IMG/VR virus record: IMGVR_UViG_3300037961_001651
Location: 1-23,913 of that record
DNA from: a virus
Direction: 5' to 3' (one strand)
DNA: 23,913 bases
Positions 34 to 7,744 of the stretch are shown here, in pieces (position 1 is the stretch's first letter; each line of letters begins with the position of its first letter). A program made the translations under genes and the position numbers. The notes beneath the pieces are model-generated. The model ran no database searches and was not told the DNA's origin. It saw only the letters and a program-made list of their open reading frames with translations.

Positions 34-557
34 TATATTGCTCTCTGTGTATTATAATTTTTGTAGTAATCTTTCATTACTGTTCCCCCTTTTTTCTTTT
101 CTGTAATTCCTTTTATAACTAATTTTGGATTAGCAGGTGCACCACTAGGCATATTGTCTAATACATATTTATATGCATTTTTAAATTGAGGTGTTTCTTT
201 TAATAATTTTTTTGCTTCTTCTTCTGAAGATGCTTTAATAGTAACATTATTAATATTATCTCCAATTCTAAAACTACCTTTTTCACCACGATAAAACATT
301 TTAGGACTTATTACTTTAAAGTTAATTTTGTATTCATTTAAAGGTGAAGCTGATTTACCAAACTTATTAATTAACTTTGACTTTAATTCAGAATCTGTTA
401 TTAAGTCTTCATCTTTTTGTTTATAAAAATTATCTAAAGTTTTTTCATCAGACTTTGTTAAATTTTTATTTGCATATGTTTCAAGTATTTTTTGAGCTTT
501 AGTTTTTGTTGTAGCTCCTGTTAATAGTTTACTTAAACCTGATAGTGCTTTTGTCAT
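33..557 (-). CDS. Phage protein sharing both termini with its neighbour (short paralog)
   Basis: 174 residues, lysine-rich, no signal peptide or membrane segment. I do not recognise a family. Its first 30 or so residues (MTKALSGLSKLLTG, then KAQKILETY) closely match the start of the upstream 348-residue protein, and its last 14 (KDYYKNYNTQRAI plus a preceding Gly-Gly pair) are nearly identical to that protein's end, while the middles differ. The start ATG overlaps the stop of that gene (ATGA), so the two are translationally coupled. It sits between terminase and further late genes, so it is probably a minor virion or ejected protein; that is an inference from position. Confidence 0.8.
   Translation of the reverse strand: MTKALSGLSKLLTGATTKTKAQKILETYANKNLTKSDEKTLDNFYKQKDEDLITDSELKSKLINKFGKSASPLNEYKINFKVISPKMFYRGEKGSFRIGDNINNVTIKASSEEEAKKLLKETPQFKNAYKYVLDNMPSGAPANPKLVIKGITEKKKGGTVMKDYYKNYNTQRAI
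42..74. repeat. 33-bp direct repeat at the 3' ends of two paralogous genes (mate at 563-595)
   Basis: Positions 42-74 and 563-595 match with one mismatch. Each copy encodes the shared C-terminal tail (DYYKNYNTQR) of the two leftward paralogs, so the similarity is kept at DNA level and not only in the protein. This suggests recent duplication or gene conversion of the tail-coding end. Confidence 0.75.
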
Positions 558-3669: not shown

Positions 3670-3703
3670 TATAGGAAAATCCTATAATAGATATAGGTTT
3701 ACA
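3670..3703 (+). repeat. 34-bp palindromic control element, copy A
   Basis: Begins with the perfect palindrome TATAGGAAAATCCTATA (7-base arms, 3-base centre) and ends in TATAGGTTTACA. All 34 bases are identical to copy B at 4818-4851. The terminal TTTACA is well placed to be the -35 box of the promoter at 3698-3726, which puts the palindrome directly upstream of it, where an activator or repressor could sit. Confidence 0.75.
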
Positions 3704-3726
3704 CTATAATATATATTTGCTATTAG
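3698..3726 (+). promoter_or_regulatory. Possible rightward promoter after element A
   Basis: TTTACA (3698-3703), 17 bases, TATTAG (3721-3726). The -10 box is poor; the case rests on equivalent placement of -35/-10 pairs after copies B and D of the same element. It would serve the 55-residue and Gp88-like genes. Confidence 0.4.
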
Positions 3727-4817: not shown

Positions 4818-4851
4818 TATAGGAAAATCCTATAATAGATATAGGTTTACA
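4818..4851 (+). repeat. 34-bp palindromic control element, copy B
   Basis: Identical over all 34 bases to copy A at 3670-3703. It is followed by a plausible -10 (TATACT, 4868-4873) 16 bases after the terminal TTTACA, so it may start the short RNA that ends at the 4993-5026 terminator. Confidence 0.75.
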
Positions 4852-4891
4852 TAATAATAATATACTATATACTTAATAATAATAATATATA

Positions 4892-4951
4892 AATATAAAA
4901 CACTTATAAAGATATTTATATAATATAAAACACTTATAAAGATATTTATAT
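4892..4951. repeat. Perfect tandem repeat, 2 x 30 bp
   Basis: 4892-4921 and 4922-4951 are identical. Each unit contains AACACTTATAAAG between the self-complementary arms ATAT/ATAT, so each can fold into a weak hairpin. It could be an iteron-like pair (origin) or a repeated RNA element. Confidence 0.75.
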
Positions 4952-5064: not shown

Positions 5065-5082
5065 TGTGACATATTTATCACT
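5065..5082 (+). promoter_or_regulatory. TGTGACAT motif, copy 4
   Basis: TGTGACATATTTATCACT, the most palindromic half-site pair (TGTGA and TCAC). It abuts element C. Confidence 0.45.
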
Positions 5083-5126
5083 ATAGGAAAATCCTATAAT
5101 AACTATAGAAAAAACCTATACCAGGG
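5082..5126 (+). repeat. Palindromic control element, copy C (variant)
   Basis: The first 20 bases match copies A and B, including the 17-base palindrome. It then diverges to ACTATAG and ends in CCTATACCAGG, the reverse complement of CCTGGTATAGG found at the left edge of copy B. It lacks the TTTACA end, so it may be a binding site without its own promoter. It is flanked by TGTGACAT copies 4 and 5. Confidence 0.65.
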
Positions 5127-5786: not shown

Positions 5787-6407
5787 ATGAATAAAAAATT
5801 AAAAGTTTTAGTAGCTTGTGAATATTCTGGAACAGTAAGGGATGCCTTTGCAAAACTAGGGCATGATGCATGGAGTTGTGACATTTTACCATCTGAATCA
5901 GAAGGCAATCATATACAAGGAGATGTTATAGAACAGTTAGATAAGGGTTGGGATTTAATGGTGGCACATCCTCCTTGTACTCATTTAGCAGTAAGTGGTG
6001 CTAGATGGTTTACAGAAGGAGTAAAGCCTTGGTCATTGCAGGAAGATGCATTAGATTTTGTAAGAAAATTATTAAATGCACCAATAAAAAGAATAGCTAT
6101 AGAAAATCCAATAAGTGTTATATCAACAAAAATTAGAAAACCCAACCAGATTATACAACCTTGGATGTTTGGAGATTTAGCAACAAAAACTACTTGTTTA
6201 TGGACTAAGGGATTACCTAACTTAATTCCTAGTGTTACTAAAAAACCTGAGTTAGAATATCACTACACTAAGTCAGGTCGTAGGATGCAGAAGTGGATGT
6301 ATGATATTAGATGTAAGACTACTAAAAATGGTCTTAGACAAAAGTTAGCTAGTAAAACATTCAAAGGAATAGCAGATGCTATGGCAAATCAATGGAGTAA
6401 AATATAA
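5787..6407 (+). CDS. Cytosine-C5 DNA methyltransferase-like protein
   Basis: 206 residues, preceded by TAGGAG. Seen: an N-terminal SAM-binding strand VLVACEYSGTVRDAF (about 7-21), a second strand SCDILPSE, GDV at 45-47, then HPPCT at 61-65 whose Cys64 corresponds to the catalytic cysteine of C5 methylases (usually PPCQ), and IENP at 105-108 matching the catalytic ENV/ENP motif. The protein is about half the length of a classical C5 methylase and has no room for a full target recognition domain or the late motifs IX-X. This small form is common in phages. A role in protecting phage DNA from host restriction is the usual interpretation; activity is inferred. The C-terminus is basic and may contact DNA. 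Confidence 0.85.
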   Translation: MNKKLKVLVACEYSGTVRDAFAKLGHDAWSCDILPSESEGNHIQGDVIEQLDKGWDLMVAHPPCTHLAVSGARWFTEGVKPWSLQEDALDFVRKLLNAPIKRIAIENPISVISTKIRKPNQIIQPWMFGDLATKTTCLWTKGLPNLIPSVTKKPELEYHYTKSGRRMQKWMYDIRCKTTKNGLRQKLASKTFKGIADAMANQWSKI

Positions 6408-6746: not shown

Positions 6747-6987
6747 ATTAGGATTAATTGTTTTTACTATGGGAGTAATGTTTTTTTTATCAGCTATGAT
6801 GATAGATACTTTTGATAACTTACTGCTATACTTTGACCATTTAATAAAAGCATTAACAGATAAAGAATATTTTTTAAGTAATATTGAAGGAACATTTAGA
6901 GTTATGCTATGGTTCTTTATGATGTGGTTAGGTGGTGTAATATGTTTAGCAGGTCTAACAATGATGAAGTTAATTCCTTGGAGGTAA
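6739..6987 (+). CDS. Two-pass small membrane protein
   Basis: 82 residues with two clear hydrophobic segments: about 4-24 (LGLIVFTMGVMFFLSAMMI) and about 54-76 (VMLWFFMMWLGGVICLAGLT), joined by a charged loop. No signal cleavage site is evident. GTGAGGAG lies before the ATG, inside the upstream gene. Probably an inner membrane protein of unknown role; a holin is conceivable from size and topology, but there is no endolysin next to it. Confidence 0.8.
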   Translation: MTKLGLIVFTMGVMFFLSAMMIDTFDNLLLYFDHLIKALTDKEYFLSNIEGTFRVMLWFFMMWLGGVICLAGLTMMKLIPWR

Positions 6988-7019
6988 TAGGAAAAACTAA
7001 TAATAGATATAGATTGTAA
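6986..7019 (+). repeat. Degenerate copy D of the 34-bp control element
   Basis: Aligns without gaps to copies A/B with about 26 of 34 identical, including the core TAATAGATATAG. The palindrome is lost. The last six bases (TTGTAA) take the place of TTTACA and form the -35 box of the promoter at 7014-7041. Confidence 0.55.
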
Positions 7020-7041
7020 TTATAATTAAGATGTGTATAAT
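7014..7041 (+). promoter_or_regulatory. Promoter before the structured RNA region
   Basis: TTGTAA (7014-7019), 16 bases, TATAAT (7036-7041). It would transcribe the 56-residue gene and the structured RNA at 7247-7436. Confidence 0.55.
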
Positions 7042-7078
7042 AAATTTAAATTAAATATAAATGAAAGGAAAAAATAAA

Positions 7079-7249
7079 ATGATAAATTTTAAATTAATAA
7101 AAATAATTGCTAGGTCGCATAAAAAACCAATACCAAAAGATGTGGTAGATTTTATGAACCAAGAAAGAAAAGGTATAAAGTTTGGAGATATGGATTTTAT
7201 ACACTTAATAAGAGCATTTAACAAGATGCAGAAAGATGCTAGAGAATAG
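7079..7249 (+). CDS. 56-residue hypothetical protein
   Basis: The start at 7079 is chosen over an in-frame ATG at 7061 because the bases between them (AAAGGAAAAAATAAA) are the ribosome binding site used before other genes here (3761, 3956), placed correctly only for 7079. The product begins MINFKLIKIIARSHKKPIP, is basic at the N-terminus and helical after residue 20. Its TAG stop is the first pair of the long stem of the structured RNA, so ribosomes reaching the stop would enter that helix. Function unknown. Confidence 0.7.
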   Translation: MINFKLIKIIARSHKKPIPKDVVDFMNQERKGIKFGDMDFIHLIRAFNKMQKDARE

Positions 7250-7436
7250 CATTTACATGGAGAGTTGTCAGCGAGGTGATGTGACTATTAGATGTGATAA
7301 TTTATTAGGTAAAATTGCATGGCACGTTCCTAGAGTAATAAAAGATAAGCCCTTAGAGTTATAGCTAAGGTGTCTAGGCAGGTACTATAACTACCTGAAG
7401 AAAGGGGCAGAGCCTTTACTCTCCATGTAAGTGCTA
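7247..7436 (+). ncRNA. Candidate structured RNA with 18-bp closing stem and complementary hairpin loops
   Basis: The ends 7247-7264 and 7419-7436 pair over 18 continuous positions (one G-U). Inside, four further stems can be drawn: GTCA/TGAC (7267-7270, 7282-7285, weak); CCTAGA/TCTAGG (7329-7334, 7373-7378) capped by CCTTAG/CTAAGG (7351-7356, 7365-7370); CAGGTA/TACCTG (7379-7384, 7392-7397); AAAGG/CCTTT (7401-7405, 7413-7417). The loop of the second hairpin contains GTTATAG (7358-7364), the exact reverse complement of the whole 7-base loop CTATAAC (7385-7391) of the third: a kissing loop, within or between molecules. No gene fits this stretch. It matches no RNA family I can name with confidence. 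Confidence 0.72.
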
Positions 7437-7462
7437 AAACCAGGATAACAAAGGAGAAGTGA

Positions 7463-7744
7463 ATGAGTAATATATATAATGAACAAAGAGCAGAACAGAT
7501 GTTTGAAGAAATGAAAGAAGATAACATCTCAAAAGAATCATTAGTAGAAGTTATAGATTTTATAAAAAAATATCTTGTAAAAAATATAACTTCTAAATGG
7601 ACTGAAGAATTTGTAAAGGTAGATAATATGGCATTATTAAAATTAATACTTGACAAAGTAAAACAAATAGATGATAATGCAAGAATGAAAGCAGAACATT
7701 TTGTAGAAAAGAACAAAGACTTTTGGTTAGAGGGAGCAGATTAA
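7463..7744 (+). CDS. Hypothetical helical acidic protein, 93 residues
   Basis: Start follows AAAGGAGAAGTGA, a strong ribosome binding site 26 bases after the structured RNA ends. It is almost all charged helix (MFEEMKEDNISKESLVEVID, then VDNMALLKLILDKVKQIDD), without cysteine or membrane segments. It is first in a run of short overlapping genes. No family is recognised; small acidic helical phage proteins are often inhibitors of host enzymes, but nothing here shows it. Confidence 0.82.
   Translation: MSNIYNEQRAEQMFEEMKEDNISKESLVEVIDFIKKYLVKNITSKWTEEFVKVDNMALLKLILDKVKQIDDNARMKAEHFVEKNKDFWLEGAD

Follow-up and report, generated by a model that had tools for sequence, protein, structure and literature searches.

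A conserved, structured phage RNA with a probable tRNA(Tyr)-like anatomy and a masked anticodon

Introduction

What kind of molecule is encoded by a stretch of 190 bases that lies between two phage genes, and that is predicted to fold into a structure with two perfectly complementary hairpin loops? The question is raised by positions 7247-7436 (plus strand) of the virus record IMGVR_UViG_3300037961_001651 from IMG/VR, which was analysed over its entire 23.9 kb (23,913 nucleotides, called the window in the following). An initial annotation, made from the sequence of the window alone, had described an end-to-end stem, further inner stems and the two matching loops. It had considered a free phage RNA, a cis-acting leader, a molecule that multimerizes through its loops as the phi29 packaging RNA does, and a two-state switch. 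Here, we use relatives of the element from other phages to ask which of its parts are conserved, what it resembles, and what role it may have.

Results

The element and its surroundings in the window

The predicted folding energy of the candidate RNA is -64.8 kcal/mol, compared to -44.3 ± 4.1 kcal/mol for dinucleotide shuffles (z -5.06; 0 of 200 shuffles as stable). The end-to-end stem, originally given as 18 bp, has 19 pairs by our count, one of them G-U (7247-7265 with 7418-7436), so that the earlier figure was a fair one. The inner stems that had been noted are also present in the fold, and the helices are backed by the comparative data presented below. The loop sequences GTTATAG (7358-7364) and CTATAAC (7385-7391) are indeed exact reverse complements. 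That chance is an unlikely source of this match is borne out by shuffling: seven complementary bases between predicted hairpin loops occurred in 0 of 1000 dinucleotide shuffles, the maximum being six, in two of them.

The RNA is located within a run of small genes, with the terminase on the left (minus strand), and the primase and polymerase on the right. A DNA methyltransferase gene (phrog_757, 5787-6407) is found near the RNA in the same small-gene block. The stretch had been called gene-free, which is correct for the interior of the RNA, but its first three bases (7247-7249) are also the TAG stop codon of a small upstream ORF (7061-7249, plus strand; 62 aa, with a second in-frame ATG at 7079-7081). 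The product of this ORF is charged and has a weak PHROG match of unknown function; no matching protein was identified among the annotated phage records searched. Its relatives have 53-62 aa. Where aligned loci of the main neighbourhood (see below) include the upstream sequence, they stop at the same point with few exceptions. An upstream promoter had also been claimed. A sigma70-like match, TTGTAA-16-TATAAT (7014-7041, plus strand), is present according to a consensus scan only, but it precedes the small ORF, about 205 bases 5' of the RNA, and is the probable promoter for the small ORF together with the RNA. The ribosome binding site described downstream is found as AAGGAG (7451-7456) ahead of an ATG at 7463.

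The promoter match overlaps a copy of a 42-nt intergenic repeat, which carries an inverted repeat (TATAGGAAAATCCTATA) and is followed by promoter-like sequence. Copies of this repeat, which is probably a repeated phage promoter or operator, are located at 3670-3711, 4818-4859, 5082-5123 and 6986-7027 of the window, and several relatives have a similar element that begins precisely where the RNA ends. Elsewhere in the window (4892-4951), a 30-nt AT-rich unit is perfectly duplicated in tandem.

Relatives and their distribution

Relatives of the RNA were collected from IMG/VR by three routes, namely via the downstream protein, with the pattern CCTAGAGTAATAAAAGA, and with a pattern for the anticodon-like arm (see below) that does not overlap with CCTAGAGTAATAAAAGA. 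Since the third route leaves the first pattern untouched, the helix termed H5 below is free of search bias. The RNA was found in 25 phage contigs, with covariance-model scores of 109-224 bits for the members, and 22 distinct sequences were aligned (alignment A3). The pattern AGGTGTCTAGG..GG.A retrieved no members beyond the known ones, the GTAATANAAGANAA pattern no new members among the matches listed, and an exact pattern search of GTDB genomes gave 0 matches. A blastn search with the window RNA against phage records returned short chance matches only. Rfam 15 assigned the window RNA to no family at the gathering threshold, and at permissive thresholds (up to E 10) nothing rose above the cut-off for the window and three relatives. 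Literature searches did not yield a description of the ~190-base RNA.

A match to the T-arm pattern in another contig (L290, 10249-10362) was rejected as a member. It scores 14 bits, is only a degenerate tRNA-like stretch that has AAAGATTGGTTCGAATCCTTT in common with the T arm of the RNA and nothing else, and receives no ARAGORN call. Matches to the pattern AGGTGTCTAGG..GG.A in marine phages also revealed a conserved element of the form ACCTTATT...AATAAGGTGTCTAGGTAGGCAAG...CTTGTCTACYGC, unrelated to the RNA, immediately 3' of the end of one gene (L056, ~459-475, minus strand; L059, ~2772, plus strand; L061, ~1481, plus strand; at least a dozen similar loci). It resembles paired hairpins and is perhaps a terminator or other RNA element.

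The DNA polymerase of the window is 46-47% identical to the polymerases of the pelagiphages HTVC103P, HTVC104P and HTVC115P, a resemblance that makes SAR11 the likely host. The covariance model detected the RNA neither in these three phages nor in other loci fetched via primase and terminase relatives (many of them short fragments), which indicates that the RNA is sporadic among close relatives. The covariance model (R1) also gave no convincing match in 397 SAR11-family genomes; a single 20-bit match was taken as chance.

At nearly all loci of the main neighbourhood with upstream sequence, the small upstream gene has its end right at the start of the RNA, but the downstream genes differ. In L025 and L046, the RNA is placed between other genes, with an endonuclease-like product encoded downstream in one case, and the phage helicase is nearest to those of Pseudomonas and Rhizobium phages. 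L276 represents a third neighbourhood. Judged from these sequences, the RNA is present in at least two different phage lineages, beside different genes. Moreover, a promoter-like repeated element begins at the 3' end of the RNA in many relatives. The differing neighbours (L025/L046 and L276) and this repeat together argue for a separate, trans-acting RNA that moves between phages, and not for a leader.

Covariation and the loop-loop helix

The proposed structure has 52 pairs. Across the 22 sequences, 94.6% of the alignment cells hold a standard pair, and two-sided changes are seen in 24 of the 52 pairs (104 cells), compared to 2-5 pairs in a control with slid partners. For each helix, two-sided events were counted on trees from which that helix had been left out. 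The initial annotation had let its case depend on compensatory changes in the stem and the two loops of relatives. Such changes are found in both loops and in almost all stems, and identify the element as a real, conserved, structured phage RNA with a loop-loop match that is under selection.

In the window (all positions plus strand), the 5' strand of an outer stem (7247-7258) pairs with 7425-7436, beyond the tRNA-like core. The remainder of its 3' strand (7426-7436) is placed by fold and alignment. In many relatives the outer stem is interrupted by an internal loop, and it is apparently absent from L276. Next comes a 7-bp acceptor-like stem, H2 (GGAGAGT at 7259-7265 with 7418-7424; paired in 22 of 22 sequences, three two-sided events), whose 3' strand ACTCTCC is followed by a discriminator-like A (7418-7425 together), an invariant column of the alignment. 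A D-arm-like stem, H3 (7266-7270 with 7320-7324), has two-sided changes in three of its five pairs (four events). Its enlarged loop contains a D-loop-like motif, AGG (7274-7276; GGG in most relatives), analogous to tRNA positions 18-20, and a hairpin of its own, H4 (7287-7306; 83% paired, two-sided change in all six pairs, seven events). H5 (CCTAGA at 7329-7334 with TCTAGG at 7373-7378; six events, none broken) forms the base of an inserted hairpin domain. From it, an A-rich and, in the alignment, nearly invariant single-stranded joining strand (GTAATAAAAGATAAGC, 7335-7350) leads to hairpin H6 (CCTTAG...CTAAGG, 7351-7370; eight events). The loop of H6 forms 7 bp with the loop of H8, an anticodon-arm-like hairpin (CAGGTA-CTATAAC-TACCTG, 7379-7397; seven events) that ARAGORN takes for the anticodon arm of a tRNA-Tyr in relatives. 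The "anticodon" of the masked 7-nt loop reads ATA in the window, and GTA or CTA in relatives. The last helix, H9, is a T-arm-like hairpin placed by alignment (AAAGG-GGCAGAG-CCTTT, 7401-7417), with 0 two-sided events.

The loop-loop helix (H7) retains all seven pairs in 22 of 22 sequences, with 0 broken states and about six two-sided events. One of its pairs (7362/7387) occurs as U-A, C-G, G-C and U-G, another as G-C and A-U. Covariation of this kind would arise from pairing within one molecule as well as from pairing between two. The two-state switch suggested earlier is based on an alternative 8-bp helix from the loops and their flanks. Nearly all copies could form this helix, owing to a conserved A and U next to the loops, but nothing favours a switch. 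A different pairing between the 5' strands of H5 and H8 (GUUCCUA with UAGGAAC), which some relatives allow, is broken in the window and was rejected.

Resemblance to tRNA(Tyr)

The arrangement of these helices suggests, with considerable probability, a tRNA-like anatomy with a masked anticodon, a resemblance that had escaped the initial annotation. The 3' half consists, in this order, of a 6-bp arm with the 7-nt loop (C/U)UNUAAC, 3-4 nt, the T-like arm, directly adjoining it the 7-bp acceptor, and the invariant A. The anticodon-like loop has U at position 33 and A at position 37. The acceptor has a covarying 5' strand, GGAGAGU, and all 22 sequences have the stem and the following A. Most T loops (about 15-16 of 22; near-identical rows change the count) read TTCGAAT, TTCAAAT, TTCGACT or TTCAAGT. 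They are degenerate in the remaining relatives, with the window copy, GGCAGAG, the least tRNA-like. U-U mismatches take the place of the two middle pairs of the T stem in 15-16 of 22 relatives, and an alternative 4-bp hairpin, GATT/AATC, competes with this stem.

tRNA detection programs agree in part. ARAGORN finds no tRNA in the window. With default settings, it reports tRNA-Tyr in two of 22 relatives (L025 and L046), compared to 0 of 1100 shuffles, and misses the other 20. With relaxed settings, it reports tRNA-Tyr in 16 of 22, compared to 7.5% of shuffles; all calls have an NTA anticodon, and nearly all end at the same acceptor-like 3' strand. The Rfam tRNA family (RF00005) is the best one for L018 (E 0.034) and L036 (E 0.16), with a best score among relatives of 20.9 bits, below the cut-off of 29. 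Both programs place the 5' acceptor strand of their cloverleaf inside H6, and not at the covarying GGAGAGT, and they therefore vouch for the 3' half only. In a blastn search, the most divergent copy (L276) matched tRNA-Tyr genes of Klebsiella phages via the T arm, acceptor and discriminator, and the acceptor GGGGAGT/ACTCCCCA of L018, L036 and L039 is identical to that of one Klebsiella phage tRNA-Tyr. The tRNA-Tyr of SAR11 shares the start of the anticodon loop (CUGUAA), the T loop TTCGAAT and the discriminator A, but has a different acceptor, GGAGGGG.

The D-like and T-like loops may also be in contact. The loop motif of the D-like arm is (A/G)(G/C)(G/C)T, with its first base in the place of tRNA position 18 and its second in that of 19. 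Among all D-by-T combinations of variable unpaired positions, 19-56 and 18-55 rank first and second for covariation; among 231 feature pairs, they rank 5 and 13, with few events. In the L037/L047 clade, G-C at 19-56 has become C-G. At 18-55, G-U has become A-G independently in the window and in L011, and stepwise in L009, and 54-58 has changed from U-A to G-G twice. Covariation between the loops is suggestive of tRNA elbow contacts in the parallel register of tRNA, and only suggestive because the events are few.

Anticodons AUA and GUA read tyrosine codons, and CUA reads the amber stop codon. Position 34 of the anticodon-like loop, which is fully paired in all 22 sequences, is A, G or C, and has changed about five times together with its partner, which would be too costly for a tRNA that decodes. 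The loop therefore appears to be kept for pairing, not for decoding. The short variable loop and A34 or C34 make for poor tyrosyl-tRNA synthetase identity, which counts against a tRNA(Tyr) plan.

Discussion

The best overall explanation for the data, to which we give about an even chance, is a stable, trans-acting phage RNA on the plan of a tRNA(Tyr). The comparison of relatives shows its parts: a 7-bp acceptor-like stem with the invariant A behind it, a D-like arm enlarged by a loop hairpin, an anticodon-like arm, and a T-like arm that is preceded by a short variable region. The hairpin domain sits between the D-like and anticodon-like arms, with its loop paired to all seven bases of the anticodon-like loop. 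Host tRNA enzymes (RNase P, 3'-end trimming activities, perhaps CCA addition) might shorten the outer stem or shield the ends, in the way they act on a pre-tRNA. With its anticodon paired, the RNA would not read codons, and its rigid, L-like shape could be recognized as a tRNA that is translationally dead. It might then serve as a decoy for, or a regulator of, a tRNA-handling protein of the host (or the phage), with one that encounters tRNA(Tyr) as the likeliest target. As to function, our best guess is mimicry directed at tRNA-handling proteins, even if we regard such a role as somewhat unlikely.

By analogy, a decoy role is plausible in principle because tRNA(Tyr) is a known battleground: it is degraded by retron-Eco7 and Septu, and phages respond with tRNA-Tyr of their own, which in the case of T5/SP15 and T6 rescues them from these systems (PMC11555353, PMC13096335). 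The phage tRNA-Tyr genes (T5/SP15, T6 and Klebsiella phages) are similar to the RNA in the acceptor (GGGGAGT/ACTCCCCA in three relatives), the discriminator A, the T arm GGTTCGANTCC, and the NTA anticodon in a 7-nt loop. However, the RNA described here is ~100 nt longer, has additional hairpins within and behind the D arm, and lacks a long variable arm and an encoded CCA. Its anticodon loop is fully paired to another loop and hence masked, unlike that of the SP15 tRNA-Tyr, which requires the anticodon for rescue (PMC11555353). A PrrC/RloC-type protein (PF13166) was found above the cut-off in 0 of 99 genomes of SAR11, the presumed host. Therefore, no target of this type is known in the presumed host, which counts against a decoy.

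Among viral tRNA mimics, the tyrosylated tRNA-like structure of brome mosaic virus, a plant RNA virus, is also virus-encoded, of similar size, and an imitation of tRNA(Tyr). The RNA studied here differs in that it stands by itself and comes from a DNA phage, forms its acceptor as an ordinary helix where the plant virus uses a pseudoknot, and has a hairpin that covers the anticodon. tmRNA likewise has a tRNA-like acceptor/T domain attached to extra RNA, but the RNA receives no tmRNA call from ARAGORN and has no significant tmRNA match in Rfam (best E 7).

Alternatively, the RNA could be a free phage RNA in which the loop-loop helix forms between two molecules (as a dimer or higher multimer), as in the phi29 packaging RNA, with the tRNA-like parts serving only to protect the ends. 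The loops are exactly complementary in every copy, and H6 is joined to H5 by only two nucleotides (TG) on one side, so that pairing in cis looks sterically tight. Nevertheless, we consider the multimer unlikely: the joining strand of 16 nt on the other side gives cis pairing some slack, nothing requires a multimer, and the phage has a standard large terminase. Complementary loops that are able to kiss are also found in the phi29 packaging RNA, which has a paired 5'/3' end as well, and in ColE1 RNA I/RNA II. However, the phage type and terminase are different, there is no sequence or Rfam match, and tRNA-like arms are present here. The RNA is not a member of the phi29 family that the initial annotation had brought up as an analogy, as judged by the ordinary terminase large subunit (phrog_38, E 1.7e-114) and by the closing helix, which includes the tRNA-like acceptor.

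It is quite improbable that the RNA is instead a structured RNA of unknown role, with an anticodon-like arm (a 7-nt kissing hairpin) and a T-like arm (a small stem) that have arisen by convergence. Several copies, that of the window among them, have a degenerate T arm, and 7-nt, fully paired kissing loops are also found in ColE1 RNA I/RNA II, which was once likened to tRNA. Yet all parts would have to converge, including the 0-nt link between the T-like arm and the 7-bp acceptor, the invariant A, the canonical-type T loops in about 15-16 of 22 sequences, and the D/T-loop covariation at the positions of elbow contacts.

A cis-acting leader or riboswitch-like switch on the next gene, another of the original suggestions, fares worse. 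The ACTCTCC strand could for example pair with the GGAG of the ribosome site when the closing stem opens, and indeed a strong ribosome site and its start codon follow, the latter 27 nt after the RNA, and the 3' acceptor-like strand of the RNA is complementary to GGAGA. However, the downstream genes belong to several unrelated families, with starts 10-402 bases away, the ribosome-site region is not conserved along with the RNA, and the promoter-like repeat sits at the RNA 3' end in many relatives. We therefore regard a leader as improbable.

The hairpin domain could also be an intron or another removable insert of an interrupted tRNA-Tyr gene, the mature product of which would decode. After removal of the segment between the acceptor strand and the AAGGTGTCTAGG stretch, the L018 sequence is called as tRNA-Tyr(GTA) by ARAGORN, but the D stem of this product (e.g. 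GCC/GGT) is not kept in relatives, whereas H5 and H6, which the removal would destroy, are conserved and covary. Moreover, the changes of the first anticodon base (A, G or C) with its partner would turn tyrosine into amber reading, and no group I or II intron, or other Rfam family, was matched. In eukaryotic and archaeal pre-tRNAs, the anticodon is paired with the intron, and an inserted segment of the same RNA thus covers the anticodon as it does here. The insert in the phage RNA, however, is outside the anticodon loop, and bacteria are not known to have the eukaryotic or archaeal type of tRNA splicing machinery. An intron-containing tRNA was thus rejected as very improbable.

Least likely is a bacterial Y RNA, which tethers the Ro60/Rsr protein and has a tRNA-like head on top of a long stem between its two ends: the general idea is alike, in that the acceptor of the tRNA-like module of YrlA runs on into a long closing stem, but the phage RNA has kissing loops, matches no such Rfam family even at E 10, apparently lacks the outer stem in L276, and would find a TROVE-domain (Ro60) protein (PF05731) in 0 of 99 genomes of SAR11, the inferred host.

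Most known cases of viral tRNA mimicry come from plant RNA viruses, and the tRNAs of phages are now recognized as counter-defence agents. Overall, the most fitting description of the molecule is a tRNA-like phage RNA whose anticodon is hidden, and with it a novel form of tRNA mimicry by a virus. Tentatively, and in a reading that falls short of probable, it may stand for a new class of phage RNA that derives from tRNA(Tyr), carries a complement to its own anticodon loop, is handled as a tRNA yet cannot be used by the ribosome, sabotages or shields tRNA metabolism, and has moved between phage lineages. The alignment of 22 sequences could serve as a model for this RNA family. If the interpretation is correct, phages that probably infect SAR11, whose members are some of the commonest bacteria in ocean surface waters, would possess a mimic that keeps the exterior of a tRNA and drops decoding. 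The RNA would then be a concrete molecule for probing how phages exploit tRNA-handling enzymes.
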